Shown: positions 4,460-26,033 of the stretch, piece after piece | How the letters are laid out: every line of letters begins with the position of its first letter | Position numbering within the stretch: the first letter of the stretch is position 1 | Assembly (NCBI GenBank): GCA_035574275.1 | Contig: DATLYY010000021.1 | Span: forward strand, 1-47,572 | DNA from: Verrucomicrobiia bacterium | GTDB lineage: Bacteria > Zixibacteria > MSB-5A5 > DSPP01 | Length of the DNA stretch: 47,572 nucleotides | Direction of reading: 5' to 3' | Program-made: the position numbers and the translations under genes | Notes under the pieces: generated by a model | Databases searched by the model: none | The model's input: the letters and a program-made list of their open reading frames with translations, nothing else | Told to the model about the DNA's origin: nothing

Positions 4460-4816
4460 GGGGGCGACCGGTTTCGACGAGGACAAGGAGAAAAAGCTGG
4501 CCTGTCGAGCTCCCTGCACGCTCGCTAATCTCGCGGGATACAATTCAAGTGCCAACGATCACGTTGCACTGGCTGCCTAATAAAATAGCGTAGCCCGTCC
4601 CTTTCCGGTTTGCCCTTTGGCTGGAGAGCTGACGTCGACTAAAAGGGCTGGGTTTTCGGGTGTTCGGGACCGGAGACCGAGGAGCTTTCTCGAACTGGTC
4701 CGCTCTTGAGCCCGCCCGAGGCATAAGTCCGGATGAATAAAAAAGAAGAAGGGCTATACAGGTAGAGGGCTTTTTTGAATTTCCTTCGGACGCGGGTTCG
4801 ATTCCCGCCGCCTCCA
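4460..4816 (+). ncRNA. ssrA: Transfer-messenger RNA (tmRNA, ssrA)
   Basis: The one-piece tmRNA rescues stalled ribosomes with SmpB and adds a degradation tag. The 5' end GGGGGCGACCGG followed by TTTCGACG is the canonical tmRNA start. The 3' end folds as a T arm (GCGGG-TTCGATT-CCCGC) and acceptor strand CGCCTCC plus A4816. It pairs with GGGGGCG at 4460-4466 over seven pairs with one G-U. CCA is not encoded. The tag frame ends in ALAA with tandem stops: GCC at 4551 begins ANDHVALAA, followed by TAA TAA at 4578-4583. The resume codon is inferred from alignment to the usual AND... tag start; it gives a short nine-residue tag. Length is about 357 nt, normal for the family. Confidence 0.95.
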
Positions 4817-4873
4817 CTTTAAAAACAGGGATTAGGGATCATTGATTAGTTAAAACCAAAACAAATTTCCGGC

Positions 4874-10603: not shown

Positions 10604-10631
10604 TTGACTTGGTATGGGGCCGGGCTATATT
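10604..10631 (+). promoter_or_regulatory. Promoter of the aromatic supraoperon
   Basis: TTGACT (10604-10609), 16-nt spacer, TATATT (10626-10631), close to the sigma-70 consensus. Transcription would start about 10638, just upstream of the leader peptide ribosome site. No other comparable promoter was seen before dapF. Confidence 0.75.
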
Positions 10632-10651
10632 AATTCGTAAGAGGTTAAAGA

Positions 10652-10726
10652 ATGAAAGCGCTATTCTGCTCGCCGGCTTGTTTGAATGGGGGTTGGTACT
10701 GGTATTCGAGCTTGCGGGCGGGTTAG
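10652..10726 (+). CDS. trpL: Aromatic/trp leader peptide (24 aa) with Trp-Tyr-Trp-Tyr
   Basis: A 24-codon open frame (ATG 10652, TAG 10724) with a purine-rich ribosome site, AAGAGG (10639-10644), seven bases before it. Codons 15-18 are Trp-Tyr-Trp-Tyr (TGG TAC TGG TAT, 10694-10705) inside GGWYWYSS. The peptide starts MKALFCSP and ends SLRAG. Two Trp and two Tyr in a row in 24 residues, right after a promoter and directly before a terminator/antiterminator, is the signature of a ribosome-stalling attenuator peptide. The alternating pattern suggests that lack of either charged tRNA-Trp or tRNA-Tyr stalls the ribosome, which fits an operon making both amino acids. It is too short for standard gene calling. 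The name trpL is by analogy in function, not homology. Confidence 0.8.
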   Translation: MKALFCSPACLNGGWYWYSSLRAG

Positions 10727-10773
10727 CTTTGTTTGTGCGTAAGCTTGGCCCCGCCCGAAAGCGGGGCTTTTTT
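10715..10773 (+). promoter_or_regulatory. Transcription attenuator: antiterminator and terminator
   Basis: The terminator is GCCCCGC (10748-10754) / GCGGGGC (10761-10767), loop CCGAAA, then six T (10768-10773), 17 nt before dapF. The competing antiterminator is CGGGCGGG (10715-10722), the end of the leader coding region, pairing perfectly over 8 bp with CCCGCCCG (10750-10757). The two structures share 10750-10754 and exclude each other. An upstream protector is also possible: GCTCGCC (10668-10674) with GGCGGGT (10717-10723). This stem encloses the Trp/Tyr codons and would free the terminator when translation does not stall. The layout equals the 1-2-3-4 arrangement of classical trp attenuators. 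Confidence 0.8.
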
Positions 10774-10790
10774 GTTGCTGGAAAACGAAT

Positions 10791-11612
10791 ATGAAGCTGA
10801 AATTTTACAAACTGGAAGCGGCCGGAAACGATTTTATCATCGTTTTAGAACGAAATTTGCCTAAAATGCCGCCGGTCGCTTTGGTAAAACGGCTCTGCCA
10901 TCGGCACACCGGCATCGGAGCGGACGGCCTGATTATCTTGGAAAAAGGGCGGGCCGCCAAGTGGCGGATGCGGATTTTCAACGCGGACGGCTCGGACGGC
11001 CAATTTTCCGGCAACGGCGCCCGCTGTTTGGCCCATCTCCTTTTCCGTTTGCGCTGGGTGGTCGGAAAACGGGCTGTCTTCGAGACCGTCCGGGGGGCGA
11101 CCGAAGTGGTGCGTACCCGCGGGGATTATTACCGTGTCGACATGGGTCGCCCCGTTTGGGACGGCGGTGCCATTCCGCTCAACTCGACCAAAAACGCTTT
11201 CATCAACCAGTCCATCGAGGCGGGCGGCCGGGTCTTTACCGGCACGGCCGTTTCCGTTGGGAATCCCCATCTGGTTTTGTTCGTCGATTCGATTCCTGTA
11301 AACTGGGCGGAATTGGGGGAGAAACTGGAACGCCACCGGCTTTTTCCCAAAGGGGCCAACATCGAATTTGTCCGCCCGCACGGCAAAAAACGGGCGACCG
11401 TGGCGGTCTGGGAGCGGGGTGTGGGGGAAACGTTGGCCTGCGGCACCGGCTCGGTGGCCGTGCTCGCCGCCGGCGTCATCACCGGGCGGCTGGCGCGCAA
11501 AGCCAAGATCCAAATGCCGGGAGGGGTTCTGAACGTGGAATGGGAGACAGATGGCCATCTTTATCTTTCCGGCCCGGTTCGCTATCTCTTTTCAGGAGAG
11601 TTTGAGTTGTGA
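10791..11612 (+). CDS. dapF: Diaminopimelate epimerase
   Basis: Cofactor-free epimerase converting LL- to meso-diaminopimelate for lysine and peptidoglycan. The 273-residue protein has KLEAAGNDFI at the N-terminus. The first catalytic Cys is in NADGSDGQFSGNGARC (about residues 62-77) and the second in GVGETLACGTGSVAV (about 205-220). Both active-site cysteines and the GNGARC and ACGTGS loops are intact, which separates it from the related PhzF protein at 6360. It is the first structural gene after the attenuator, 17 nt beyond the T run. Its stop overlaps the GTG of trpE, so lysine/cell-wall precursor synthesis is tied to aromatic control, an unusual placement. Confidence 0.96.
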   Translation: MKLKFYKLEAAGNDFIIVLERNLPKMPPVALVKRLCHRHTGIGADGLIILEKGRAAKWRMRIFNADGSDGQFSGNGARCLAHLLFRLRWVVGKRAVFETVRGATEVVRTRGDYYRVDMGRPVWDGGAIPLNSTKNAFINQSIEAGGRVFTGTAVSVGNPHLVLFVDSIPVNWAELGEKLERHRLFPKGANIEFVRPHGKKRATVAVWERGVGETLACGTGSVAVLAAGVITGRLARKAKIQMPGGVLNVEWETDGHLYLSGPVRYLFSGEFEL

Positions 11613-13087
11613 CCTCGTTTGAAGAGTTTGAGAAATTTGCTCGCGAGGGGAACATTCTTCCAGTCTGGGAAGAGGCGCCGGCCGATTTGCAAACGCCGGT
11701 TTCCGCTTTTCTGCGAATTTCCAAAGGAGCAAAGTTTGCCTTCCTGCTCGAGTCGGTCGAAGGAGGGGAAAAACTGGCCCGCTACTCTTTTCTGGGCGCC
11801 AACCCGAGGATGATTTTCAAAAGCAAGGGGAAGAATATTGAATTCATCTCGGATGGGAAGAGGAAGAAAAGCTTTACCGGGAATCCGTTGACCCAATTGG
11901 AGGATTTGTTTGCCAAGTACCGCGCACCGAGGGTGGAAGGTTTGCCCCGTTTTTGGGGAGGGGGCGTCGGCTACTTCGGGTATGACATCGTGCGGCATAT
12001 CGAGAAACTTCCCAACCGTTTGAAGGATGACCTGAAACAGCCCGATTCGTGGTTCGGCATCTATGACTTGATTCTTATCTTTGATCATTTGAAACATAAG
12101 ATTTTGATTGTCAAATCAGTCGATTTACATCTCCCCAAATTGCCACTGGACAAGCTGTATGCGGCGGCAGTTAAGGAGGTTTCGAAAGTAAAATCCCTGC
12201 TGGCAAAACCGCTCCGTTTCCCCCGTTTGAAAACCGGCAAAAAGAAGGGCGGCGAGGCGGTTTCCAACACATCCAAGGAACGGTTTTTGAAAACCGTGGA
12301 GAAAGCCAGGAAATACATCGTTGCCGGGGACGTTTTCCAAGTGGTGCTCTCCCGGCGATTCTCCGTTCCCCTGGCGGCTGATCCCTTCTCCGTTTATCGC
12401 GCTCTGCGTTCAGTCAATCCCTCGCCCTATCTCTATTTTCTTAAACTGGGGGATGTTTCCATTGCCGGCTCCTCCCCCGAAATGCTGGTACGGGTGGAGG
12501 AGGGGTTTGCCGAAACCCGCCCCATAGCCGGCACCCGCCCGCGGGGAAAGTGCGAAGAAGAGGATACCCAGCTGGCGCGCGAACTTCTGGCCGACGAAAA
12601 GGAGACCGCCGAGCACGTGATGTTAGTCGATTTGGGGCGCAACGACATCGGACGGGTCTCCGTCGGAGGGACGGTGGCGCTCACCGATCGTATGAAAGTC
12701 GAAAAATACTCCCACGTGATGCATATTGTCTCCGGGGTAAAAGGAAAATTGCGCCCCGGCGTCGGGCGCTTTGAAGTGCTGGCCTCCTGCTTCCCGGCTG
12801 GCACGGTAACCGGTGCTCCCAAGGTGCGGGCGATGGAAATCATCGAGGAACTGGAACCCTCCCGCCGGGGAATTTATGCCGGCGCCATCGGCTACTTTGA
12901 TTTTTCCGGCAACCTGGACAGCTGCATCGCCATCCGCACAGTCGTTTGCAACGGAAACCGGGCCTACGTGCAGGCCGGCGCGGGCATCGTGTACGACTCC
13001 GTTCCGGAACGGGAGTACGAAGAGACGGTCTCCAAAGCGGCCGGCGTGCTTCTGGCCGTCCAACGGGCCAACCAGGGGAAAATATGA
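11609..13087 (+). CDS. trpE: Anthranilate synthase component I
   Basis: Converts chorismate to anthranilate with ammonia from TrpG, the first committed step of tryptophan synthesis. At 492 residues the length is normal. The N-terminal regulatory part contains FAFLLESVEGGEKLARYSF; the LLES motif binds feedback tryptophan. The catalytic domain shows RPIAGTRPRG, DEKETAEHVMLVDLGRNDIG and FPAGTVTGAPKVRAMEII, all typical of chorismate-utilising enzymes. GTG start overlapping the dapF stop (GTGA). The tryptophan-binding motif suggests enzyme-level feedback in addition to attenuation. Confidence 0.97.
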   Translation: MTSFEEFEKFAREGNILPVWEEAPADLQTPVSAFLRISKGAKFAFLLESVEGGEKLARYSFLGANPRMIFKSKGKNIEFISDGKRKKSFTGNPLTQLEDLFAKYRAPRVEGLPRFWGGGVGYFGYDIVRHIEKLPNRLKDDLKQPDSWFGIYDLILIFDHLKHKILIVKSVDLHLPKLPLDKLYAAAVKEVSKVKSLLAKPLRFPRLKTGKKKGGEAVSNTSKERFLKTVEKARKYIVAGDVFQVVLSRRFSVPLAADPFSVYRALRSVNPSPYLYFLKLGDVSIAGSSPEMLVRVEEGFAETRPIAGTRPRGKCEEEDTQLARELLADEKETAEHVMLVDLGRNDIGRVSVGGTVALTDRMKVEKYSHVMHIVSGVKGKLRPGVGRFEVLASCFPAGTVTGAPKVRAMEIIEELEPSRRGIYAGAIGYFDFSGNLDSCIAIRTVVCNGNRAYVQAGAGIVYDSVPEREYEETVSKAAGVLLAVQRANQGKI

Positions 13088-13671
13088 TTTATCTTCTCGA
13101 TAATTATGATTCTTTCACCTATAACCTGTACCAGTATCTGGTGGAACTGAACGGCACGGTTCAAGTGGCGCGGAATGACAAAATTACGGTGACTGAAATC
13201 GAAAAACTTTTCCCCGGGGCCATTGTGATTTCGCCGGGCCCGAAAAGGCCGGAGGAGGCCGGAATTTCAGTCGAACTCGTCCAAAAATGGGGTCCCAAAA
13301 TCCCGATTCTGGGGGTTTGCCTGGGACACCAGGCCATCGCCGTTGCCTTCGGCGCACGGGTCGTCGGCGCCAAGCGGATTATGCACGGGAAGGTTTCGGC
13401 CATCCACCACGACGGCCAGACGATTTTCGAAGGGCTGGAAAATCCGTTCTTTGCCACCCGCTACCATTCGTTGGCCGTGGAGCCCTCAAGCGTGCCTCCG
13501 GAATTGGAGGTGACGGCCACCGCCGATGACGGCACGATAATGGGGCTGCGGCATCGGATTTATTGCATCGAAGGCGTTCAATTTCACCCGGAATCGTTTT
13601 TGACCTCCTGCGGAAAAAAACTTTTGGAAAATTTCGTAAAAATGGCGCGGACGGTTCAGGCCAATGTTTAA
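13084..13671 (+). CDS. trpG: Anthranilate synthase component II (glutamine amidotransferase)
   Basis: Class I glutaminase supplying ammonia to TrpE. At 195 residues, it begins MIYLLDNYDSFTYNLYQYL at the ATG overlapping the trpE stop (ATGA); an in-frame start further upstream would lie inside trpE and is not used. The nucleophile Cys is in GVCLGHQA (about residues 77-84) and the catalytic His-Glu pair in GVQFHPESF (about 171-179). The oxyanion segment SPGPKRPEEAG differs slightly from the common SPGPGxPxxAG. It is a stand-alone amidotransferase, not fused to TrpD. It may also serve aminodeoxychorismate synthase for folate, as in other bacteria with one copy. Confidence 0.96.
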   Translation: MIYLLDNYDSFTYNLYQYLVELNGTVQVARNDKITVTEIEKLFPGAIVISPGPKRPEEAGISVELVQKWGPKIPILGVCLGHQAIAVAFGARVVGAKRIMHGKVSAIHHDGQTIFEGLENPFFATRYHSLAVEPSSVPPELEVTATADDGTIMGLRHRIYCIEGVQFHPESFLTSCGKKLLENFVKMARTVQANV

Positions 13672-14674
13672 AATTTTTCTGCAAAAAGTGATGGCCGGCG
13701 AGCATTTGACTTTCTCCGAAGCCGGGCAGGCAATGGAGGAGATAATGTCCGGCGGCGCGCCTGCCGTGCAAATCGCCGCCTTCGCCACCGCCCTGCGTTT
13801 GCGGGGTGAAACGGTGGAGGAACTGGCCGGGTTCGTCACCGCAATGCGCCAGCGCTCCGTCAAGCTGGCCGTTTCCGACCCAAACGCCATTGACACCTGC
13901 GGCACGGGGGGGGATGGGGCCGGCACCTTCAACATCTCCACGGCGGCGGCTCTGATTGCCGCCGGCGCGGGAGCCACGGTCGTCAAACATGGCGGAAAAG
14001 GGATCTCTTCCGCCTGCGGTTCCGCGGATGTTTTCGCCGAACTCGGAGTTAAAATCGACGCGTCGCCGGAGGTGGTCGGGCAGTGTGTAGAGGAGGTTGG
14101 CATCGGGTTCTGCTTCGCCCCGGTTTTTCACCCCGGAATGAAAACCGCCGCGCCGGTGCGGCAGGAACTTGGCTTCCGCACCTTTTTCAATCTTTTGGGC
14201 CCGCTTGCCAATCCAGCCGGCGTCAAGCGCCAGCTTCTGGGGGTTTTTCATCCCAGCTGGACCGAAAAACTGGTCGCCGTTTTGCAGCTTCTGGGGAGCG
14301 AGCGTATTTTAAGCTTCTCAAACCGCGGGGGGATGGACGAGCTCTCCTTCGATTTCCCCTCGCAGGCAGTCGAGCTTTCGAGCGGTGCGGTGCGGGAATT
14401 TGTTCTGGAAACCTCCGGCTGGGGCTACCGCCCGGCCGGATTTCGGGAATTGGCGGGCGGAAACCCGGGCGAAAATGCGGCTATTATTCTTGCAATTTTG
14501 AACGGGGAGAAAAGTCCCCGCCGGGATGCTGCGGTTTTGAACGCTGCCGCCGCCCTGTATGTGGCTGGAAAAGCCGATACCGTTCGGGATGGGCTGCCTT
14601 TGGCCGAAGAGGCGATTGACTCCGGCAGGGCGAAGAAAAAATTGGAATTGTTGGTTGAAACGAGCACAAAATGA
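13664..14674 (+). CDS. trpD: Anthranilate phosphoribosyltransferase
   Basis: Joins anthranilate to PRPP. The 336-residue protein has the PRPP loop DTCGTGGDGAGTFNIST (about residues 79-95). The metal and anthranilate site is represented by GFCFAPVFHPGMK and APVRQELGFRTFFNLLGPLA. The strongly conserved KHGNR motif reads KHGGKGISSACGSADV here, so the Asn-Arg pair is Gly-Lys. The rest of the fold is standard, so I expect activity, but this change is noted as a finding. It overlaps trpG by 8 nt and trpC by 4 nt. Confidence 0.94.
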   Translation: MFKIFLQKVMAGEHLTFSEAGQAMEEIMSGGAPAVQIAAFATALRLRGETVEELAGFVTAMRQRSVKLAVSDPNAIDTCGTGGDGAGTFNISTAAALIAAGAGATVVKHGGKGISSACGSADVFAELGVKIDASPEVVGQCVEEVGIGFCFAPVFHPGMKTAAPVRQELGFRTFFNLLGPLANPAGVKRQLLGVFHPSWTEKLVAVLQLLGSERILSFSNRGGMDELSFDFPSQAVELSSGAVREFVLETSGWGYRPAGFRELAGGNPGENAAIILAILNGEKSPRRDAAVLNAAAALYVAGKADTVRDGLPLAEEAIDSGRAKKKLELLVETSTK

Positions 14675-15474
14675 TGATGAACACCCTGCAGCAGATTTTC
14701 GCTTACAAGAAAAAAGAGCTGGAAGAAACCAAGAAAAAGCTCCCGATGACGACCATGCTTCGGAGTTTGTCGGTCAATCCTCCCAAGTTTCTTTCGGCGC
14801 TTAGGAAGCCCGGCCCCGCAGTCATCGCCGAGTTCAAGCGGGCCTCCCCGTCGGCCGGGGTGATTTCTGCCAACGGCAGCGTGGAAAAAATCACCGCAGA
14901 TTACGCTTCCGCTGGCGCGGCGGCTCTCTCCGTTTTGACTGAAAAGCAGTTTTTCGGGGGTTCCGAGTCGGATTTGAAGGCGGCGAAAAAGACTTCCAAA
15001 TTGCCCATTTTGCGCAAGGATTTCATTTTTGACCAGTACCAGATTTTGGAGGCCAAAAGCTGGGGGGCGGATGCCGTGTTATTGATTGCCGCCATGCTGG
15101 CGGACGCCAAGCTCTCCATTCTATTGCAGGCCTGCCGCAAATGGGAGCTCGAAGCGGTGGTGGAGGTGCACACCAAAAGCGAGCTGGAACGGGCCCTGGC
15201 CTTCGGCGCCGATATCGTCGGCGTCAACAACCGGGATTTGAAAACGATGCGGGTGGACGTGAAAACCTCTTTTGAACTGGCGGAATGGATGGACGGACAC
15301 ACCACCTTCATCAGCGAGTCGGGCATCGACTCCCCCGAAACGGCTGTCCGGTTACATCGGGCCGGCTACAAGGGTTTTTTAATCGGCACCCATTTTATGC
15401 GCCAGCCCGAACCGGGGAAGGAATTGAAACGTTTTTTGACCGAACTGAAGAAACTGACCCATGTTAAAAGTTAA
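14671..15474 (+). CDS. trpC: Indole-3-glycerol phosphate synthase
   Basis: Closes the indole ring from carboxyphenylamino-deoxyribulose phosphate. The 267-residue TIM barrel has the signatures AVIAEFKRASPSAGVI (about residues 50-65), LTEKQFFGGS, LPILRKDFIFDQYQI and VGVNNRDLKTM, together covering the catalytic Lys and Glu residues. ESGI at the end of strand 8 binds phosphate. It is monofunctional, with trpF as a separate downstream gene. The start overlaps the trpD stop (ATGATG...); the first or second ATG could be used. Confidence 0.97.
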   Translation: MMMNTLQQIFAYKKKELEETKKKLPMTTMLRSLSVNPPKFLSALRKPGPAVIAEFKRASPSAGVISANGSVEKITADYASAGAAALSVLTEKQFFGGSESDLKAAKKTSKLPILRKDFIFDQYQILEAKSWGADAVLLIAAMLADAKLSILLQACRKWELEAVVEVHTKSELERALAFGADIVGVNNRDLKTMRVDVKTSFELAEWMDGHTTFISESGIDSPETAVRLHRAGYKGFLIGTHFMRQPEPGKELKRFLTELKKLTHVKS

Positions 15475-16090
15475 AATTTGCGGAATAACCAATCTGGAAG
15501 ACGCCCTTCTGGCCGAAAAGCTGGGAGCCGATATGTTGGGGTTTATCTTCCATGGTAAAAGCCCGCGTTTTGCCCACCCTGCCAAAGTTGCGCGAATTGT
15601 TGCGGCGCTTTCACCGCTCACTCGAAAAGTCGGAGTTTTCGTAAACGAACCGGTGGAAGAAGTGTTGCGAATGGCCGAAAAGCTGGAGTTCGATTTTGTG
15701 CAGTTGGCCGGCGAGGAAGGAGATGCCTATGTCAAGAAAATTCAAAAACAATTTCCGGTCATAAAGGCGTTTCGGATTGGAGAAGATTTTCGGCCCAAAG
15801 TTTTGCAAAAATCGCCGGCTTTGCTTACGCTGGCGGATGCCAAAGTGAACGGCTGCTACGGTGGGAGCGGAAAAAGCTTCGATTGGCGGAAATTGACGGC
15901 GTTGAAAGGGAACGCCCGGCTGGTTCTGGCCGGAGGCATCGGCGCGGAAAATCTACGGCAGGCATACGAGGTCTTGCAGCCGGCGGCGGTCGATTTGACC
16001 AGTTCGGTGGAAGAACGGCCGGGGAAAAAGGATGCGGCAAAGATGAAACGCTTTTTTGAGGTGGCGAATGAAATCCGCTTCGGCCGTTAA
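15461..16090 (+). CDS. trpF: Phosphoribosylanthranilate isomerase
   Basis: Amadori isomerase of tryptophan synthesis; 209 residues, a TIM barrel. [20 protein letters not shown] at the N-terminus carries the catalytic Cys, and [11 protein letters not shown] is the next conserved strand. The C-terminal part has GGSGKSFDW and [10 protein letters not shown], the phosphate-binding loops. It overlaps the end of trpC by 14 nt and trpB by 23 nt, the longest overlap in the operon. The end of the protein ([10 protein letters not shown]) is normal, so the overlap is genuine and not a mis-set stop. Confidence 0.95.
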
Positions 16091-17270
16091 AAACTACCGC
16101 CGGCCGGACGCCCGCGGCCATTTCGGCCCCTACGGAGGACGTTTTGTGCCGGAAACCTTGATGTCCGCGCTTTTTGAGCTGGAAAAGGAATACGCAAAGG
16201 CCAGAAACGATTCTCAATTTCAAGCTGAATGGAAGCGTGTGCTCACCGATTACGCCGGCCGCCCGTCGCCGTTGTTTTTTGCCGAGCGGGCCTCCAAAGA
16301 GCTGGGATTCCGGCTTTTCTTGAAGCGCGAGGATTTGAACCACACCGGTGCGCACAAAATCAACAACGTTTTGGGGCAGGTCTTGTTGGCTTTGCGGATG
16401 GGGAAGAAGCGCATCATTGCCGAAACCGGCGCCGGTCAGCACGGCTTGGCGACCGCCACGGTCTGCGCCAAATACGGTTTGGAATGCATTGTTTATATGG
16501 GGGAAGAGGATGTTCACCGTCAGTCCGCCAATGTTTACAAAATGCAACTGCTTGGTGCCAAAGTGGTTCCGGTTACTTCCGGCTCAAAAACCTTGAAGGA
16601 TGCCATCAACGAAACACTTCGTGATTGGGTTACGAATGTGCGCACGACGTTTTACGTCGTTGGCTCCGTGGTGGGGCCGCATCCCTACCCGATGATGGTG
16701 CGGGATTTTCAATCGATTATCGGGAAAGAAGCAAAATCACAGTTTTTTCAGCGGCAAAAACGGCTGCCGGACTATCTCGTTGCCTGCGTCGGCGGCGGCT
16801 CCAATGCCATCGGGCTTTTTTATCCCTTTCTGAAAACAAAAGTCGCAATGATTGGTGTCGAAGCAGCCGGCCTGGGCCTTTCCACCAATCGTCATTCGGC
16901 CACCCTGACCAAAGGCCGTCCCGGCGTTCTGCACGGAAGCAAAAGCTACCTCTTGCAGGATTCCAGCGGCCAAGTATCACCGCCCCATTCCATTTCCGCG
17001 GGACTCGATTACCCCGGCGTCGGGCCGGAACATTCCTTTTTGAAGGACTCCGGGCGGGTCGAGTATGTAGCTGTTACAGATAAAAAAGCGCTGGAAGGAT
17101 TTTGTTTCCTTTCCCAAACGGAAGGAATCATCCCGGCCTTGGAACCGGCCCACGCCATCGGCTATTTGCTGAAAGCCCGCCGACGCTTTGCCGGATGCTC
17201 CGTCATCTTCGGCCTTTCCGGACGGGGCGACAAGGATATGGGAATCATTCAGGAGCATTTGAAACTGTGA
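16068..17270 (+). CDS. trpB: Tryptophan synthase beta chain
   Basis: PLP enzyme joining indole and serine. The 400-residue protein has the PLP Lys in [13 protein letters not shown] (about residues 84-96), the ETGAGQHG loop, the phosphate-binding GGGSNAIG (about 233-240) and GVEAAG. ATG at 16068 is chosen with GAGGTGG just upstream; the earlier in-frame TTG (16056) adds only four residues. It is the common TrpB1 type, next to trpA with overlapping stop/start (GTGA), as needed for the alpha2beta2 complex and indole channelling. Confidence 0.97.
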
Positions 17271-18058
17271 ACCGCATCGCCTCTTTCTGGAAAAAAGGGA
17301 AAAAGGCCTTGGTGCCGTTCGTTACCGCCGGCTTTCCAAAAAGAGATTTTACTCCGGAAATCGTTTGGGGGCTGGCCGATTCCGGCGCCGATATGGTGGA
17401 ACTCGGAATCCCCTTTTCCGACCCCTTGGCGGACGGGCCGACCATTCAGGCCTCCTCACAAATCGCCTTGCAGCGGGGAGCCCGGCTTGTGGACATTTTC
17501 AGGATGGCGGAAAAAACCCGCGCCAAAATTGACATCCCCTTGCTTTTGATGGGCTACTACAATCCGCTTTTCGTCTATGGCTTGGATAAATTCTGTAAAG
17601 ACACTTCCAATGCCGGCGTGGATGGATTGATTGTCCCCGATCTGCCGATGGAAGAAGGGGCAGAACTTTCAAAAACCTGTCGAAGACAAAATCTGTCTTT
17701 GGTTTATTTGATTGCCCCCACCACGCCGCCGGAACGCATTTCGAAAATCGCTTCCGCCTCGTCCGATTTTTCCTACTGCGTTTCGGTAACCGGCGTCACC
17801 GGCGAACGAAAAAACATGAGCGCGGAACTGAAAGATTTTTTACTTTCCGTCCGGATGAGAACGAAGAAACCTTTTGTGGTCGGATTCGGCATCTCCACGC
17901 CGGAACAGGCGAGGCAAGTTGCGCCGCACGCAGACGGCGTGGCGGTCGGCAGCGCTTTGATTAAAATGTTCTTGGAGGAAAAAAACCAAAACACCGCTTT
18001 GCGCCGCGCCTGTTCACTGGTTGCCCAAATGGCCGGGAGTCTGAATGGAACTGGATGA
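17267..18058 (+). CDS. trpA: Tryptophan synthase alpha chain
   Basis: Cleaves indole-3-glycerol phosphate to indole, passed to TrpB. The 263-residue TIM barrel has the catalytic Glu in [19 protein letters not shown] (about residues 44-62), which also carries the second catalytic Asp. [12 protein letters not shown] and [13 protein letters not shown] are standard, and the phosphate site is [18 protein letters not shown] at 17267 overlaps the trpB stop; an open frame further upstream belongs to the trpB shadow. It overlaps the chorismate mutase gene by 14 nt. Confidence 0.96.
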
Positions 18059-18326
18059 ACTGCGCCGGCAAATCGACGTCGTCGACCTCCGGTTGGTCGA
18101 ACTGCTGAACGAGCGGGGGCGGCTGGTGGAAGCGGTCGGCAAGCTGAAAAGAAAACTGGGGATGGAAATCTACACGCCGGAACGGGAAAAGCAGATTTTG
18201 GAGCTGGCGGCGTCCGCCAACGGCGGCCCGTTTTCCCACGCCGCCATTTTGCGGCTTTTCGAGCGGATTCTGGATGAATCGCGCAGTTTGGAGCGAAAAA
18301 TAGCAGAAGGGGAGAAAGGCGCGTAA
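18045..18326 (+). CDS. Chorismate mutase, AroQ class (stand-alone)
   Basis: A 93-residue all-helical chorismate mutase converting chorismate to prephenate. [20 protein letters not shown] then [14 protein letters not shown] is the typical first helix, with Arg11-like and Lys39-like catalytic positions. [10 protein letters not shown] and [12 protein letters not shown] follow as helices 2 and 3. It is not fused to another domain, but its TAA overlaps the ATG of the DAHP synthase by one base. In Bacillus-like bacteria the same two domains are fused and the mutase senses prephenate, so an unfused regulatory pair is likely here. Confidence 0.9.
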
Positions 18327-19339
18327 TGGTCATCGTCATGCAGCCGGGGGCGCGGGAAGAACAGATTCAAGCGGCCATCGAACGGCTGGTGGAAAAAGGG
18401 TTCGACGTGCACCGCTCCACCGGCGTGGAACGCACGGTTCTGGGGGCCATCGGCAACAAGAACGGCATCGACATCCGCGACTTTGAGCTGCTTGAAGGCG
18501 TTCAGGAAGTCATCCGCATCACCGAGCCGTACAAGCTTGCGGGGAGAACCTTCCAGAAGGAAAACACGCAGGTCAAGATTGGCAGCGTGGTGTTCGGCGG
18601 GCCGGAAGTGGTGATTATGGCTGGCCCCTGCTCGGTGGAAAGCCGCGCGCAGATTAAAACAATTGCCAAACTGGTCAAGGAGGCCGGCGCCAAAGTGCTG
18701 CGCGGCGGCGCTTTCAAGCCGCGAACCTCCCCGTACTCGTTTCAAGGGCTGGGCGAAGAGGGACTGAAATATTTGCGGGAGGCGGCGGACGCCAATGGAC
18801 TTTTGACCGTTTCCGAAATTATGGACCGCATGGATATCCCGATTGCCATCCGCTATACCGACATTATCCAGATCGGTGCGCGCAACATGCAGAACTTCAC
18901 TTTGCTTAGGGAATTGGGAAACTTGAACAAGCCGATTTTGCTCAAGCGGGGAATGGCCGCCACCATCGACGAACTTTTAATGGCCGCCGAATACATCATG
19001 GCCGGCGGCAACCGGCAGGTAATTCTGTGCGAGCGGGGGATCCGCACCTTCGAAAACTCCACCCGCAACACACTCGATATTTCTGCCATTCCGGTGGTGA
19101 AGAAGAAATCCCACCTGCCCATTGTCGCCGACCCCTCCCACGGCACCGGCCTGCGCGACCACGTGGCGCCGATGGGGCGGGCGGCCGTTGCAGCGGGGGC
19201 GGACGGGCTTTTGATCGAAGTGCACCACGAGCCGGATAAGGCGCTCTCGGACGGCGCCCAGTCCCTCTATCCGGAGCAGTTTGCAGAGCTGGTGCGTGAG
19301 CTGCGCATAATGGCCCAGGCCATCGGGAGAAAGATTTAG
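18326..19339 (+). CDS. aroF: 3-deoxy-7-phosphoheptulonate (DAHP) synthase, type I-beta, copy 1
   Basis: First enzyme of the shikimate pathway, joining PEP and erythrose 4-phosphate. At 337 residues, residues 1-70 form the ferredoxin-like regulatory domain ([30 protein letters not shown]) known from the Thermotoga enzyme, where it binds Tyr/Phe. The barrel carries [62 protein letters not shown] and VADPSHGTG, with all metal and substrate motifs intact. It directly follows and overlaps chorismate mutase. A close paralogue is at 21869 in the same operon. Confidence 0.95.
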
Positions 19340-21036
19340 TGGAATCGTTCAAAACCGAAATCGCCAAAAAGCTGGCGGAGAAAACCGGACAGCGCTGGGA
19401 AGAGTTGGTGCGAGTCATCGAAGTGCCCCCCCAGGCAGAATTCGGTGATTTCGCCTTTCCCTGCCACGGTTTGGCCAAGGTGATGCGCAAAAATCCGGCG
19501 CAAATTGCCTCCGAGCTCGCCTCCTCGATAGTGCTTGGCAACGGGGTGAAAAAAGTGCAGGCGGTCGCCGGCTACGTCAACTTCTGGGTTGACCGGGCGC
19601 GGGCTTCCCAAGAGGTTTTGAGGAAAATCTTTGATGAGGGAACCGCCTACGGCTCCAGCAAACTGGGCGAAGGCAAAACGATTGTCATCGATTATTCCTC
19701 CCCCAATATCGCCAAGCATTTCGGCGTGGGGCACCTGCGCTCCACGGCCATCGGACACTCGCTCTATCGAATCTTCGGCAAGCTGGGTTACAAAACAGTC
19801 GGTATCAATCATCTCGGGGATTGGGGAACGCAGTTTGGCCAGTTGATTGCCGCCTTTAAAAAATGGGGAAGCGAGGAAAGGCTTTCAACAGACCCGATTA
19901 CCCATTTGTTCGAGCTGTACGTCCGTTTCAACAAGGAAGCCAAAGAGAATCCCCAAATGGCGGAGGAGGGGCGCTTTTGGTTCAAAAAATTGGAAGAGGG
20001 GGACGGAGAAACGCGCAAGCTTTGGCAGCACTTTAAGGATTTAAGTTTGAAGGAATTTGAATGGATTTTCGCCGCCTTGGGCATTACGTTCGACTACTAT
20101 TGGGGGGAAAGCTTCTACAACGACAAAATTGAAGGAGTAATCAAGCTTCTCGAGGAAAAAAAGCTTTCGCGCCATTCAGAAGGGGCCTTGGTGGTGGATT
20201 TGTCGGCGTACGAAATGCCGCCTTTGCTTCTGCGCAAAAAAGATGAGGCAACACTCTACTCCACCCGCGATCTGGCGGCGGCGATTTACCGCTGGGACAC
20301 GTTCCGGTTTGAAAAGTCACTCTACGTGGTCGGAGTGGCGCAAAGTTTGCATTTCAAGCAGTTGTTCAAGACGCTGGCGCTTATGGGATTTGACTGGGCC
20401 TCCCGCCTCGTGCACGTCGATTTTGGTTGGGTGAAGTTCGGCGACGCGGTGATGTCCACCCGGGAGGGGAACATTGTCTTTCTTAAGGAAGTGCTGGATA
20501 AAGGAATCGAACTGGCGGAAAAAACGATTCGGGAAAAAAATCCGGACCTGAAGGATATGGACAAAACCGCCCGGATGATCGCCGTCGGCGCCATTCTGTT
20601 CGCCGATTTGTCCGCCCGCCGCCACAAGGATATCACTTTTCGTTGGGAGGAGGTTTTGAATTTCGAGGGGGAAACGGGGCCGTATCTGCAATACACCCAC
20701 GCCCGGCTTGCTTCCCTTCTGCGCAAATACGGCAAACCGGTGAGCCGAGATGTAAATTTTGATTTGATTTCCTCCGAGTCGGTTTGGCCCGTGATTCGTC
20801 AACTTGGGAATTTTCCACCGACGATTTTGGCGGCGGCGGAGGCGTACGAACCCTCCTTTATCGCCACCTATCTCCTCGATTTGGCCAAGGCGTTCAACGC
20901 CTTCTATCAAACGGAGCGAATCTTGACCGGTGATGCCACCGCCACTGACGCTAAAATTGTGCTCTGTTCGTGTGTCAAATCCGTGCTTAAAGAGGGATTG
21001 TTTCTGCTCGGTATCGAATCGCCGGAGGAAATGTGA
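19339..21036 (+). CDS. argS: Arginyl-tRNA synthetase
   Basis: Class I aminoacyl-tRNA synthetase, 565 residues, normal length. The N-terminal Add1 domain (residues 1-105) starts ESFKTEIAKKLAEKTGQ. The HIGH-type motif is seen in SSPNIAKHFGVGHLRSTAIG, and the second signature is the usual ArgRS form without a full KMSKS (KFGDAVMSTREGN). The C-terminal DALR anticodon-binding domain includes LQYTHARLASLLRKYG. GTG start overlaps the previous TAG by one base. Its place between two DAHP synthase genes in an aromatic operon is unusual; it would put arginine tRNA charging under the aromatic attenuator unless internal promoters exist. Confidence 0.95.
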   Translation: MESFKTEIAKKLAEKTGQRWEELVRVIEVPPQAEFGDFAFPCHGLAKVMRKNPAQIASELASSIVLGNGVKKVQAVAGYVNFWVDRARASQEVLRKIFDEGTAYGSSKLGEGKTIVIDYSSPNIAKHFGVGHLRSTAIGHSLYRIFGKLGYKTVGINHLGDWGTQFGQLIAAFKKWGSEERLSTDPITHLFELYVRFNKEAKENPQMAEEGRFWFKKLEEGDGETRKLWQHFKDLSLKEFEWIFAALGITFDYYWGESFYNDKIEGVIKLLEEKKLSRHSEGALVVDLSAYEMPPLLLRKKDEATLYSTRDLAAAIYRWDTFRFEKSLYVVGVAQSLHFKQLFKTLALMGFDWASRLVHVDFGWVKFGDAVMSTREGNIVFLKEVLDKGIELAEKTIREKNPDLKDMDKTARMIAVGAILFADLSARRHKDITFRWEEVLNFEGETGPYLQYTHARLASLLRKYGKPVSRDVNFDLISSESVWPVIRQLGNFPPTILAAAEAYEPSFIATYLLDLAKAFNAFYQTERILTGDATATDAKIVLCSCVKSVLKEGLFLLGIESPEEM

Positions 21037-21866
21037 AGCCGTTTCGTCGGGTGGCCATCCTCGGCACGGGTCTTGTCGGCGGCTCAATCGGACTCGCCTT
21101 GCGGAAGAAGAAAGTTCTCCGCATCGGTTTCGACCGTCCAGAGGTTTTGCGAAAAGCTTTGAAGAAGAAGGCCATCGACCGCGGAGCAAAAAGTTTACAG
21201 GAAGCGGTGAAAGAGACTGATTTGGTAGTATTAGCAACACCCGTAGGAGAAATTCTTGGTTTGCTTCCCAAGCTCGCAGCGATGATTCCGGCCGAGACTT
21301 TAATCACGGATGTGGGCAGCACCAAAAAGGAAATTTGCAACTTAGCTTCGAAGGAGTTAAGGAATTTCATCGGCGGACATCCACTCGCAGGAAAGGCGGA
21401 AGGGGGAATCGAGAACGCCGAGACCGGACTGTTCACCGGAAAGAATTGGTTTTTGTGTCCGAATGGAAATTCAGTAGCGCTAACCCGACTGAAATCGTTC
21501 GTCCGGTTGCTTGGCGCCCGGCCAGTGATTGTCGAGCCAGAAAAGCACGACTGGCTGCTGGCCGCCACTTCCCACCTGCCGCAGTTGGTTTCGACACTTC
21601 TTGCGGCGACGATTGCGGAACTGTTGGAGAAAGAAACAAAACGAATGTCGGTTTTTGCCGGAGCGGGATTGCGCGACACCACCCGCTTGGCCCGCTCCCC
21701 CTTTTCCATATGGAGAGATGTTTTTTCGTCGAACCGGAGTGAACTTGGAAGAGCATTGGAACTGTTCGTCCAAAAAGCGGCCGAACTTGCCGACAATTTT
21801 CCGAATTTGGACGGTGTCAAACGGCAGTTTGAAATCGCCAACCGGGTGGGAAGGATGTTGCAGTAG
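21033..21866 (+). CDS. tyrA: Prephenate dehydrogenase
   Basis: Oxidatively decarboxylates prephenate (or arogenate) for tyrosine synthesis. At 277 residues, it has the NAD(P) Rossmann motif GTGLVGGSIGLAL (about residues 11-23), VGSTKKEI, and the substrate-site His in GGHPLAGKAEGG (about 112-123). The C-terminal helical dimerisation domain includes HDWLLAATSHLPQLVS and AGAGLRDTTRLA. There is no ACT domain, so feedback inhibition through one is not expected. GTG start overlaps the argS stop. It provides the tyrosine branch of the operon; no prephenate dehydratase for phenylalanine is in the window. Confidence 0.95.
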   Translation: MKPFRRVAILGTGLVGGSIGLALRKKKVLRIGFDRPEVLRKALKKKAIDRGAKSLQEAVKETDLVVLATPVGEILGLLPKLAAMIPAETLITDVGSTKKEICNLASKELRNFIGGHPLAGKAEGGIENAETGLFTGKNWFLCPNGNSVALTRLKSFVRLLGARPVIVEPEKHDWLLAATSHLPQLVSTLLAATIAELLEKETKRMSVFAGAGLRDTTRLARSPFSIWRDVFSSNRSELGRALELFVQKAAELADNFPNLDGVKRQFEIANRVGRMLQ

Positions 21867-21868
21867 AA

Positions 21869-22894
21869 ATGCTGGTCGTTCTTGAGAGAAACGCCACGCC
21901 GGAACAGGTGGAAGCGGTCTGCGCCGAAGTGCGCAAAATGGGGCTTACACCCCATGCCCTGCCCGGGGCCCAGCGGACCGTGGTCGGCATCACCGGCAAT
22001 CTCGGAATGGTCAACGCCGCCCGGCTGGAAGTACTTGCCGGGGTCATCGAGGTTATCCACGTCACTCAGCCGTTCAAGCTGGTCTCGCGGGAGTTCAGAA
22101 AAGAGGACACGATTGTCCGCGTGGGCCCGTCCGGAAATATCGTTGAAATCGGCGGGAAAAGAGTTTGCGTGATGGCCGGGCCGTGCGCGGTGGAAAGCAA
22201 GGAACAGGCCTTTGCCGTGGCGGAAAAGGTCAAAGCCTCCGGCGCCAAAATCTTTCGCGGCGGGGCCTTCAAGCCGCGCACCTCGCCGTACAGTTTTCAG
22301 GGTTTGGGGGAGGAGGGGTTGAAAATTCTGGCCGCCGTGCGGGAAAAATTCGGCTTGCTGGTGGTCACGGAGGCGATTGACACGGAAAGTTTGAGCCAGG
22401 TGGAAGAATATGCCGACGTTATCCAAATCGGGGCGCGCAACATGCAGAACTTTTCGCTTTTGAAACGGGTCGGCAAGTCCGCAAAGCCGGTTTTGCTCAA
22501 ACGGGGAATGTCCGCCACCTTGCAGGAACTGTTGATGGCCGCGGAGTACATCGTTTCCGAAGGCAATCCAAACGTGATTTTGTGCGAGCGGGGGGTGCGC
22601 ACCTTCGCCGACCACACCCGCAACACCCTCGATCTGTCCGCCATCCCGTTCGTGGAGCGCACCAGCCATTTGCCTATCATAGCCGATCCCTCCCACGGCA
22701 CGGGACGGCGGGAAAAGGTTTTGCCGATGTCCCGCGCGGCGGTGGCGGCCGGCGCGGACGGGCTTTTAATCGAAGTGCACCACAAACCGGAGGAGGCGCT
22801 TTCCGACGGGCAGGAATCGATTTATCCGGAACAGTTTGCCACCTTGATGAAGGAAATTTCAGCCATTGCCCAAGTGATTGGTCGGGAAGTGTGA
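21869..22894 (+). CDS. aroF: 3-deoxy-7-phosphoheptulonate (DAHP) synthase, type I-beta, copy 2
   Basis: Second DAHP synthase in the operon, 341 residues. The N-terminal ferredoxin-like domain is present (LVVLERNATPEQVEAVCAEV; QRTVVGITGN). Barrel motifs are [62 protein letters not shown] and [12 protein letters not shown]. The catalytic core closely resembles copy 1 and the N-terminal domains differ more, suggesting duplication followed by change in effector response. It follows tyrA by 2 nt, while copy 1 follows chorismate mutase, so each isozyme sits behind a different branch-point gene. Which amino acid inhibits which copy cannot be read from sequence. Confidence 0.95.
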   Translation: MLVVLERNATPEQVEAVCAEVRKMGLTPHALPGAQRTVVGITGNLGMVNAARLEVLAGVIEVIHVTQPFKLVSREFRKEDTIVRVGPSGNIVEIGGKRVCVMAGPCAVESKEQAFAVAEKVKASGAKIFRGGAFKPRTSPYSFQGLGEEGLKILAAVREKFGLLVVTEAIDTESLSQVEEYADVIQIGARNMQNFSLLKRVGKSAKPVLLKRGMSATLQELLMAAEYIVSEGNPNVILCERGVRTFADHTRNTLDLSAIPFVERTSHLPIIADPSHGTGRREKVLPMSRAAVAAGADGLLIEVHHKPEEALSDGQESIYPEQFATLMKEISAIAQVIGREV

Positions 22895-24261
22895 AAAAAA
22901 TCGTTTTGACCCGCAAGGCGGAAACCGGCCCGGAATTCAGAGTCGTCCGCCACGCCGGGTCGTTGAAAGGGGAACCAACTGTACCCGGCGACAAATCCAT
23001 CTCCCATCGGGCGGCGTTGCTCGCCGCCGCCGCTTCCGGCCGCTCGGAATTCTCCAACTTTTCACCCAGTTTGGATTGTTTAGCCACATTGACCTGTTTG
23101 GAATCTCTCGGGGTTGAAATCCGTAAAAAGGAGGATAAGCTTTCCGTCATCGGAAAACGATTCGGACAGTTTCGCGCCCCCGCCGAGCCCCTTTTCTGCA
23201 ACAACTCCGGCACCACCATGCGCCTATTGTGCGGGCTTTTGGCCGGATCGGATTTTGAAGTCACGCTGGACGGCGACGCCTCGTTGCGCGGCCGCCCGAT
23301 GGACCGGGTTTTAACCCCCCTTTCTAAAATGGGATTGAAAATCGTCAAAAACGGCCCGCCGCCCTTCACCATAGCGGGAGCGAAACTTTCCGGAATCGAA
23401 TACGCGTTGCCGGTCGCCTCGGCGCAGGTCAAATCGGCCATTTTGCTGGCCGGTTTGCAGGCCGAAGGAAAGACCGTCGTGGTGGAAAAGACCCCGACCC
23501 GCGACCACACGGAACGAATGCTTGCGGCCATGAAAGCTCCGATTGAAATTTCAGCGCCGGCTTTTGACCTTTCGACGCTTGAAGGGCGGTTGGCCAAGGA
23601 ACAAAAAGAAAGGCGGATTTCGGTCAGTCGGGCGGAGTCGCTTGCGCCGTTGACTTTGAAAATCCCCGGGGATCTGTCGAGCGCCGCCTTTCTGGTTGCC
23701 GCCGCCGTCTTGGTTCCGAAGTCAAAGATTACCGTTCGCGAAGTGGGGCTCAACCCGACCCGCACGGCCTTCTTGAACGTGCTAAAACGGATGGGAGCCG
23801 AACTGAACTGGAAAGTGGAGGAGGAAAAAACCGGCGAGCCGGTCGGCACGATAACCGCCCGACACAGCGGATTAAAGGGGACGAAAATTGCCGGGGAGAT
23901 GGTTCCCAACTTGATTGACGAGCTACCCTTACTGGCCTGTTTGGCCGCTACTGCTGAAGGAACCACGGTTATCCGCGATGCGGGTGAACTGCGCAAAAAG
24001 GAATCGGACCGGATTGCCGCCGTCACTTCCAATCTCCGCAAGATGGGTGTGAAAGTAGGGGAGCTGGAAGATGGCTGGGCGATCGAGGGGCCTGCCGAGC
24101 TTACTGGAACTGATATTGAAACATTCGGCGACCACCGGATTGCCATGGCCTTTTCCGTTCTCGGTCTTGCCGCTTCGGGCGAAACCTTGATTTCGCAGCC
24201 GGAGTGCGTGGAGGTTTCCTTCCCTGGATTCTTCGATGCGCTCGAGGGGCTGGCGAAATGA
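22891..24261 (+). CDS. aroA: 3-phosphoshikimate 1-carboxyvinyltransferase (EPSP synthase)
   Basis: Sixth shikimate step, transferring enolpyruvyl from PEP to shikimate-3-phosphate; 456 residues. Motifs are VPGDKSISHRA (about residues 31-41), CNNSGTTMRLLCGLL, RGRPMDRVLTPL, LPVASAQVKSAILLAGL, LIDELPLLA (catalytic Asp), KESDRI and FGDHRIAMAFSV. The NSGTTMRL wording resembles the Bacillus-type enzyme rather than the E. coli GNAGTAMRP form. GTG at 22891 overlaps the preceding stop; longer in-frame starts upstream fall within the DAHP synthase and are rejected. The stop overlaps aroE (ATGA). Confidence 0.96.
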   Translation: MKKIVLTRKAETGPEFRVVRHAGSLKGEPTVPGDKSISHRAALLAAAASGRSEFSNFSPSLDCLATLTCLESLGVEIRKKEDKLSVIGKRFGQFRAPAEPLFCNNSGTTMRLLCGLLAGSDFEVTLDGDASLRGRPMDRVLTPLSKMGLKIVKNGPPPFTIAGAKLSGIEYALPVASAQVKSAILLAGLQAEGKTVVVEKTPTRDHTERMLAAMKAPIEISAPAFDLSTLEGRLAKEQKERRISVSRAESLAPLTLKIPGDLSSAAFLVAAAVLVPKSKITVREVGLNPTRTAFLNVLKRMGAELNWKVEEEKTGEPVGTITARHSGLKGTKIAGEMVPNLIDELPLLACLAATAEGTTVIRDAGELRKKESDRIAAVTSNLRKMGVKVGELEDGWAIEGPAELTGTDIETFGDHRIAMAFSVLGLAASGETLISQPECVEVSFPGFFDALEGLAK

Positions 24262-25106
24262 AAAAGTCCAAGCATCCCGGATTGGCGGGCATCATCGGCC
24301 AGCCCTTGGACCATTCCCTTTCCCCGTTCATCCATAATTTGGGTTTTGCGGCCCGAAAGCTTCCCTACGTTTTCGTAAAAATCGAAATTCCGCCCGCCAG
24401 ACTTTCCCGCACCATCGGAGCTTTGGCCGATTTGGGATTCATCGGCGCCAACGTCACCATGCCGCATAAAGAGGCGGTGGTTGATCTGCTCGATGCACTC
24501 TCGCCGGAAGCGGAAGCGGTGGGGGCCGTCAATACGCTGGTGGTGAAGGGATCTTCGCTGAAAGGATACAATACGGACATCGACGGCTTTGCACGCTCCC
24601 TTGAATTGCGAATGCCGGAGCGCGACTTTCCAACGGCGGCGATTTTCGGCGCGGGCGGCGCGGCGGCCGCCGTGGCCTTCGCCCTTTTCAAACGTTTTGA
24701 AACCCGCAATTTCCATTTCATCTGCCGCAACTGGCGCAAGGCGAAAAAAAACCTTTCCGGGAAACCCTTCTTTGCGGAGCGGATGTGGGCCGACTTTGTG
24801 GACTGGGAGGACGCCGAGCGGGCTGTGCGGGCCTCGGATCTCATCGTCAACGCCACGCCGGTCGGGATGGACGGCAAGAAAAGCTTCCCCGTCTCCCCAC
24901 TTGCCTTCCGGCCCGGACAGGTTGCCTGCGATCTGATCTACAACCCCCCGCTCACCCCCTTTATGCGGCTGGCCAAAAAAGGGGGAGCCAAGGCCGTGGG
25001 CGGGCTGGAAATGCTGGTCCAACAGGCGGCGGTCTCCTTCAAACTCTGGACGGGGGAGGAACTGCCGGTGGAAAAGGTGCGCCGGGAACTTTTGGGTTCT
25101 TTTTAA
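24258..25106 (+). CDS. aroE: Shikimate dehydrogenase
   Basis: NADP-dependent reduction of 3-dehydroshikimate; 282 residues. Shikimate-binding IGQPLDHSLSPFIHNLGF, catalytic Lys in GANVTMPHKEAVVDLLD (about residues 75-90), GAVNTLV and catalytic Asp in GYNTDIDGF are all present. The NADP fold motif is IFGAGGAAAAVAFAL, and the C-terminal helix has GGLEMLVQQAA. The start is the ATG overlapping the aroA stop; the open frame further upstream is the aroA shadow. It is followed 7 nt later by the first Gate-domain gene. Confidence 0.96.
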   Translation: MKKSKHPGLAGIIGQPLDHSLSPFIHNLGFAARKLPYVFVKIEIPPARLSRTIGALADLGFIGANVTMPHKEAVVDLLDALSPEAEAVGAVNTLVVKGSSLKGYNTDIDGFARSLELRMPERDFPTAAIFGAGGAAAAVAFALFKRFETRNFHFICRNWRKAKKNLSGKPFFAERMWADFVDWEDAERAVRASDLIVNATPVGMDGKKSFPVSPLAFRPGQVACDLIYNPPLTPFMRLAKKGGAKAVGGLEMLVQQAAVSFKLWTGEELPVEKVRRELLGSF

Positions 25107-25113
25107 CCCCCCC

Positions 25114-25572
25114 ATGAAGATTTCCTATCCACCCGCTGCGCAGAGTTCCTTCTCCCTGCTGGATGTCATGCGGGAAGGGTTCAAACGGGGCATCGCCACC
25201 TTCTGGATGCTGGCCAAGGTGATGATTCCGGTTTTCATCGCCGTATACCTTTTGCGGCAGACCCCGGTCTTTGACCGGGTGGCTGGTTTTTTCCGGCCTT
25301 ACATGGGGATTTTGGGGCTCCCCGGGGATGCCGCCTTGGCCGTAATCGTAGGGAGTTTGGTCAATCTCTATTCCGCCGTGGCCGTTCTGGCCCCGTTGGA
25401 GCTTTCCTGGCAGCAGGTCACCGTGGCCGCCATCTTTCTGGGGGTTTCCCATTCCCACCCGATGGAGGCCGCCATTATGTACAAGATGAAGACCCGCTTT
25501 TTAACGCTCGTTTTCCTCCGCCTCGCGGTCGGTTTTCTCCTGGCCTGGGGGATGAAGCTGGTTTTATTATGA
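25114..25572 (+). CDS. Nucleoside-recognition (Gate) domain membrane protein A
   Basis: A 152-residue integral membrane protein with at least three hydrophobic spans: FWMLAKVMIPVFIAVYLL, AALAVIVGSLVNLYSAVAVL and LVFLRLAVGFLLAWGM. The arrangement, with V..GFFRPYMG.LGLPG.AA between spans, matches the Gate (nucleoside recognition) domain found in SpmA/SpmB and nucleoside transporters. Half-size Gate proteins usually work as pairs, and the next gene (overlap ATGA) is such a partner. Within the aromatic operon it lies between aroE and aroK. A role in moving a pathway intermediate or related solute across the membrane is possible but not shown. Confidence 0.7.
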   Translation: MKISYPPAAQSSFSLLDVMREGFKRGIATFWMLAKVMIPVFIAVYLLRQTPVFDRVAGFFRPYMGILGLPGDAALAVIVGSLVNLYSAVAVLAPLELSWQQVTVAAIFLGVSHSHPMEAAIMYKMKTRFLTLVFLRLAVGFLLAWGMKLVLL

Positions 25573-26033
25573 TGGGGAACTGGACTTCGGTGGTTGGAGG
25601 GATGGCCGGCGACCTTTTTTGGCTTTTGCTCAAGATTTTTTTCATCATTATCCCGCTGTTTGTTCTGCTTGAATACGCCCAGCGGCGCGGCATTTTGGAC
25701 TGGCTGGGGAAAAAGCTGGAGCGCTTCTTTGCCGTTTTGCATTTCAAGAAAACCTCCATCTTTCCGCTCATCGCCGGGCTTTGTTTCGGAATCAGCTACG
25801 GCGCGGGGGTGCTGCTCGACGAAGCCCGCCAGGGGCGGCTGGAGGGAAAACAGACCTTTCTCGTGGCCGCCTATCTGGGCATCTGCCACGCCGTTTTCGA
25901 GGACACGCTCCTTTTCGTCGCCGTCGGCGCTTCCGGGCTGCTTTTGGTCATCCCCCGATTGATTGCCGCCTCCCTCGTCGTCTATTTGCTGGGCTTTTTG
26001 CCCGAACGGTTCTATGGAAAAGTTAGAGGGTAA
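25569..26033 (+). CDS. Nucleoside-recognition (Gate) domain membrane protein B
   Basis: A 154-residue partner of the previous gene. Membrane spans are LFWLLLKIFFIIIPLFVLLE, FPLIAGLCFGISYGAGVLL and LLLVIPRLIAASLVVYLLGF. GISYGAGVLLDEARQGRL and AAYLGICHAVFEDTLLFVAVG are Gate-like: a polar loop, then a His/Glu-containing helix. HAVFED and, in the partner, SHSHPMEA could face each other as a charged pair inside a channel or sensor; that is inference. It overlaps the previous gene by 4 nt and aroK by 20 nt, so all three are co-translated. Confidence 0.7.
   Translation: MMGNWTSVVGGMAGDLFWLLLKIFFIIIPLFVLLEYAQRRGILDWLGKKLERFFAVLHFKKTSIFPLIAGLCFGISYGAGVLLDEARQGRLEGKQTFLVAAYLGICHAVFEDTLLFVAVGASGLLLVIPRLIAASLVVYLLGFLPERFYGKVRG

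Follow-up and report, generated by a model that had tools for sequence, protein, structure and literature searches.

A probable ribosome-mediated attenuator with tryptophan and tyrosine control codons ahead of a 20-gene aromatic supraoperon, and candidate relatives in three phyla

We found that a large aromatic operon in the window (the whole stretch of DNA that was analysed, 47,572 nt) is preceded by a short leader ORF in which Trp and Tyr codons alternate. This element is very probably a ribosome-mediated attenuator of transcription, with a leader peptide that reads Trp and Tyr, two products of the supraoperon behind it. The evidence consists of the sequence parts of the leader, its folded alternatives, their conservation within the genus and a link between leader Tyr and tyrA across genomes. 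The leader parts and the operon described below are on the forward strand.

The predicted target of control is an operon at 10791–28107. It begins dapF-trpE-trpG-trpD-trpC-trpF-trpB-trpA-CM-aroF-argS and continues, after argS, with tyrA-aroF2-aroA-aroE-spmA-spmB-aroK-aroB-aroQ, where CM is chorismate mutase, aroF and aroF2 encode DAHP synthases and spmA and spmB encode two Gate-type membrane proteins, the Gate domain being detected in the first. A previous reading of this DNA from sequence only had counted 20 genes and the count is correct, as neighbours overlap or lie at most 7 nt apart (intergenic distances -14 to +7 nt). The gene of the Tyr branch is tyrA (21033–21866), which encodes a prephenate dehydrogenase (PDH_N 4e-29, PDH_C 1.2e-16). 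The operon also contains dapF (10791–11612), argS (19339–21036) and the spmA/spmB-like pair (25114–26033). Across the phylum dapF in first place and argS behind the trp genes recur, and the membrane-protein pair is found in part of the phylum.

Prephenate dehydratase (PF00800) was undetected in the genome of the window, G000 (99.9% complete), and in G001 of the same genus, and was found in 14 of 14 control genomes. Since no dehydratase is detectable, homology predicts Trp and Tyr as the operon's aromatic end products, although another dehydratase family is conceivable. The control run of the G000 leader likewise contains no Phe. Both genomes probably reflect either Phe auxotrophy or a dehydratase that went unrecognised.

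The leader region contains the parts expected of an attenuator in order, and the promoter, 24-codon frame, antiterminator and terminator that the sequence-only reading had proposed are all present at the positions it gave. A sigma-70-like promoter, TTGACT-16-TATATT, lies at 10604–10631 and is the only such match between 10500 and 10900 (0.3 expected). It is followed by a Shine-Dalgarno sequence, AAGAGG (10639–10644), and by a leader ORF of 24 codons (10652–10726) that starts with ATG and encodes MKALFCSPACLNGGWYWYSSLRAG before its stop codon. Within this ORF the control codons TGG TAC TGG TAT (Trp-Tyr-Trp-Tyr, WYWY) occupy 10694–10705. Between the ORF and the first structural gene lies an intrinsic terminator (10747–10774) with a GC stem of 7–8 bp, formed by GCCCCGC (10748–10754) and GCGGGGC (10761–10767), and then T6. 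The sequence-only reading had named a strong promoter between 10773 and 10791, bypassing the terminator, as evidence that would speak against it; none was found, and the 17-nt gap between terminator and dapF is too short for one. At the gathering threshold, an Rfam search over the window matched the leader to no family, whether T-box, TRAP or any other leader described there. The search returned only a tmRNA, at 4460–4819, with the tag ANDHVALAA.

Upstream, at 10585, lies the end of a same-strand membrane-protein gene; the hairpin and T6 could be its terminator and the short ORF a product of chance. We regard this as highly improbable. The promoter stands between the membrane-protein gene and the leader ORF. 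When the leader region was dinucleotide-shuffled 20,000 times, an ORF starting with ATG and carrying four W/Y residues in a row arose in just 3 of the shuffled sequences, never together with a terminator. The WYWY leader is the sole short ORF of its kind in the whole window when both strands are checked. Furthermore, G001 keeps promoter, leader and terminator in the same order, and throughout the phylum dapF or trpE is repeatedly preceded by a Trp leader with a terminator.

Folding of the leader RNA gave a set of competing hairpins. Segment 2, CGGGCGGG (10715–10722), pairs with segment 3, CCCGCCCG (10750–10757), to form the antiterminator (10715–10757), which is extended by AGCTT (10725–10729) pairing with AAGCT (10741–10745). 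The 49-nt antiterminator fold has an energy of -24.6 kcal/mol (z -3.6) and none of 200 shuffles was equally good. Two hairpins had been overlooked by the earlier reader. One is a 1:2 hairpin (10668–10723), in which 10668–10677 pairs with 10714–10723 around an inner stem; it is also found in G001, and the whole leader folded untranslated adopts it together with the terminator. The other is a 10-bp hairpin (10707–10747) seen in a 76-nt fold, in which pairing of 10707–10716 with 10738–10747 excludes the antiterminator. This extra hairpin has a weaker counterpart in G001 that the stall computation does not favour there.

We then modelled ribosome stalls by deleting all RNA as far as 14 nt beyond the A-site codon, an assumed ribosome edge, and with this setting the probability of the 2:3 pairing in the full leader of G000 was 0.55 at W15, 0.86 at Y16, 0.91 at W17 and 0.29 at Y18. 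Beyond Y18 it fell to 0.15 and then to 0.00, and at the end of the ORF the 3:4 pairing had reached 1.00. The corresponding values in G001 were 0.96, 0.94, 0.99 and 0.17, followed by the terminator, which there too attained a probability of 1.00 for stalls close to the ORF's end. Stalls before W15 permit the extra hairpin and termination in G000 but not in G001. Thus, in the folding of these two genomes, antiterminator and terminator are mutually exclusive, with the antiterminator free at a control-codon stall and masked when the ribosome is at the stop codon. These results place the control codons where stalls matter, with at least one codon for each amino acid there. According to the model, a stall at Y18 alone would give only partial antitermination, leaving Y16 as the main codon for Tyr sensing.

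We infer sensing in vivo, termination and read-through themselves, and they would proceed as follows. When Trp-tRNA and Tyr-tRNA are both charged and plentiful, the ribosome would pass WYWY, reach the stop codon and cover segment 2; the 3:4 terminator would then form and most transcripts would end near 10773. When either tRNA is short, the ribosome would stall in the W-Y-W(-Y) run and leave segment 2 free to pair with segment 3. The terminator would not form and RNA polymerase would enter the 20 genes. If the leader is not translated, the 1:2 hairpin would sequester segment 2 and lead to termination.

Loss of the W/Y codons or of the pairings in relatives was the evidence that the sequence-only reading had named against itself. 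We found that G001, the sole other genome of the genus (TrpE 83% identical), retains both. Its leader, MKTLFRPQARLNRGWYWYSNLRAG, aligns with that of the window without indels, and the only control-codon change is synonymous, in the first Tyr (TAC to TAT). The promoter hexamers with their 16-nt spacing, the Shine-Dalgarno sequence and the arms of the antiterminator (segments 2 and 3) and terminator are also retained, the arms being identical. Over the whole ORF, seven codons differ in amino acid and two changes are silent.

All seven amino acid changes fall among the 20 codons outside WYWY, and this bears on another reading of the aromatic run, namely that the WYWY peptide is a nascent-peptide sensor that arrests the ribosome upon free aromatic amino acid. 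TnaC likewise has an aromatic run inside its leader peptide. However, beyond the run the peptide is unconserved even within the genus, the order and number of residues in the run vary freely across phyla, and its composition follows operon content. A TnaC-like sensor is accordingly very unlikely.

In more distant relatives the control run, leader stop and terminator share a similar layout. The alternative pairing, tested against shuffles, gave a combined p of about 1e-6 when the relatives were pooled, with a median single p of about 0.25–0.3, so the per-locus antiterminator test is weak for many individual relatives. In the truncated stalled RNA of G000 used for this test, the minimum free energy structure is the extra hairpin and not the antiterminator. 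One clade shows covariation between segments 2 and 3, as in GTAGTGGG/CCCACTAC, GCAGTGGG/CCCACTGC, ATAGTGGG/CCCACTAT and GAGGTGGG/CCCACCTC.

To compare leader composition with operon content, TrpE was searched in three phyla, those of the window, of KSB1 record L059 and of Latescibacterota record L052, and up to 20 kb was read around the matches; the relatives are MAGs. Leader ORFs were located via Trp clusters near terminators and afterwards listed by hand, and those of G206 and G207, both missed by the automatic filter, were chosen by eye. The two-phylum set contained 49 leaders, 21 of them before trp operons with tyrA and 28 before operons without it. Within three residues of a leader Trp, Tyr made up 27.7% of residues when tyrA was in the operon versus 4.3% when it was not; elsewhere in the same leaders the values were 2.5% and 3.3%. 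At least two Tyr near Trp were found in 19 of 21 leaders with tyrA versus 3 of 28 without (Fisher 2e-8). The association held in a PGLS on the TrpE tree with GC as covariate (p=1.1e-7), in which GC was not significant. Sister contrasts agreed with it, setting YSYYWWWY in G111 (tyrA in the operon) against HHWWWH in G109 (no tyrA), WGYWYW and WSYWYW in G218/G219 against WWRQWW in G212, and VYFWWY in G017 against NWSWW in G009. With the third phylum added (62 leaders) and 12 residues tested, Tyr gave the strongest association (p=1.7e-5); next came Asn, with a negative sign (p=8e-4), and Phe (p=0.002). Leader Tyr thus follows operon tyrA across three phyla, in support of the Trp and Tyr sensing first proposed from the window. 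Four tyrA-bearing operons of the window's phylum (G084, G092, G099, G101) had no leader that we could find. Leaders were richer in Asn when the trp operon lacked tyrA (8.6% versus 3.9%), the Asn often standing directly ahead of the Trp run, as in NWWW.

These data also bear on whether the two Trp codons alone do the sensing, with the Tyr codons as passengers such as tolerated aromatic neighbours. Trp is present in every leader of the trp-operon survey, but the leaders were sought by their Trp. Three operons without tyrA have at least two Tyr beside Trp: G041 and G104 (RYWWWY) and G142 (NWWWYY). On the other hand, Tyr is enriched solely in the control run, and solely where the operon bears tyrA. 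In the window the control codons are not solely Trp, since Trp and Tyr alternate, and Y16 lies between W15 and W17 at a position modelled as antiterminating. Leaders of separate tyrA operons, moreover, are rich in Tyr or in Phe and Tyr and lack Trp. Sensing of Trp alone is therefore unlikely in our judgement, though less remote than the two readings discussed above.

The separate operons were found by using genome-wide TyrA positions to look for tyrA lying apart from trp. Seven genomes have a separate aroF-tyrA operon with its own leader (L268 in G105, and L262, L263, L264, L267, L272 and L273). These leaders are MKFTYYIFNYFYYFTGRYGKD in G175, MFYFFYNYYFYFTCSGKG in G179, IFYFFYYYFLF in G182, FFYYFYFCF in G201, SRYYRYYYYYNRQ in G105, SFYYFYFRFP in G143 and SFYYFYFYP in G142, and their aromatic runs include YYRYYYYY and FYFFYNYYFYF as well as that of G143. 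All seven are Tyr- or Phe/Tyr-rich and Trp-free, and each has a terminator behind it. The trp leaders of the same genomes are Trp runs from which Tyr is mostly absent: WWWLW, WWWW, WWWW, WWWRW, WWWW, WWWY and WWWYY in G175, G179, G182, G201, G105, G143 and G142, respectively. G105 has no prephenate dehydratase, and the aromatic run of its tyrA leader is Tyr only. The leaders of separate aroF-tyrA operons are candidate Tyr-sensing ribosomal attenuators, and their discovery backs the Tyr-sensing interpretation. This double dissociation between trp and tyr leaders is the strongest evidence that the Tyr codons act as control codons.

Leaders with all three aromatic residues precede tyrA-bearing operons in the third phylum. 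At the Latescibacterota-type loci L244, L249, L255, L258, L260 and L096, mixed Trp/Tyr/Phe leaders, of which FFWRSFRYYRYYR, YWRGYFYRFSRFYWE and FWYFWRRFDGRYYYYRR are examples, stand before fused trp-tyrA-aro operons. These are candidate three-amino-acid attenuators. We considered whether the Phe codons track a pheA inside the trp operon and ruled this out, as our search of those operons yielded no pheA. The rise of Phe with tyrA perhaps reflects DAHP synthase and common-pathway genes. No Phe leaders were found upstream of stand-alone pheA genes. Two trp operons have two Trp-rich leader ORFs each, with a terminator of its own behind every one: GFYFGRYWWWHYTTGR and then SYSYYWWWYTT at -414 to -109 from trpE in G111 (L163), and HHWWWHKG and then VWSWWRND at -464 to -137 in G109 (L162). 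These pairs look like tandem attenuators.

Attenuators are a textbook case of control in which one amino acid is sensed through translation speed. The enterobacterial thr leader reads Thr and Ile, and the ilvGMEDA leader reads Ile, Val and Leu. The suggestion that the window's element forms a new class was too strong, since its mechanism would be that of classical ribosome-mediated attenuation and leaders for several amino acids are known (thr, ilv). By its sequence features the element belongs with the classical attenuators, and its novelty would lie in the Trp/Tyr (and Trp/Tyr/Phe) specificity. As is proposed for the window's leader, those of thr and ilvGMEDA read several amino acids of a pathway, but they serve the aspartate-family or branched-chain pathways and lack the Trp/Tyr combination. 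In the set surveyed here, by comparison, leader composition tracks the branch genes present in the operon. The E. coli pheA leader (pheL) is also a ribosome-mediated attenuator of an aromatic gene; it differs in reading Phe. The B. subtilis aromatic supraoperon is under TRAP, and some trp and tyr genes are under T-box control. There, as is proposed for the window, common-pathway genes, trp genes and tyrA form one transcription unit controlled at the level of RNA, but control is by the TRAP protein or a tRNA-binding RNA instead of a translated leader.

We know of no Tyr-sensing ribosome attenuator, and the open-access literature that we searched reported no ribosomal attenuator sensing Tyr or Trp and Tyr. 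The trp attenuators of enterobacteria (trpL) and Actinobacteria share with the window a leader ORF, Trp codons and, ahead of the trp genes, an antiterminator and a terminator that exclude each other. In Actinobacteria the trp leaders carry double or triple UGG (Corynebacterium, Streptomyces; PMC1262725). Both groups of leaders have repeated UGG only and sense Trp, whereas the window's leader alternates Trp and Tyr, and the window's operon, unlike the trpL-type operons compared, includes tyrA and the common-pathway genes as well. Known attenuated cases in E. coli and Salmonella are trp, his, leu, thr, ilv and pheA (PMC1183508, which models attenuation of trp and his quantitatively), and tyrosine genes are listed as T-box controlled (PMC1262725). 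According to a 2010 survey that extended them to Firmicutes (PMC2965389), leader-peptide systems had until then been known in Proteobacteria and Actinobacteria only.

Our data suggest that a modular leader code probably operates in at least three uncultured phyla. Runs of Trp would go with trp-only operons, runs of Tyr (or Tyr and Phe) with separate aroF-tyrA(-pheA) operons and mixed runs with fused supraoperons, codons being gained and lost with the branch genes. If true, this code would include the first ribosome-mediated attenuators sensing tyrosine, a kind that has been missing. It would extend leader-peptide attenuation to phyla for which we found no report in the open-access literature searched. 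Two or three aromatic end products appear to be integrated by a single leader, with codons that follow operon content in three phyla, and the fusion and fission of these operons may serve as a natural experiment on the rewiring of a regulatory sensor.
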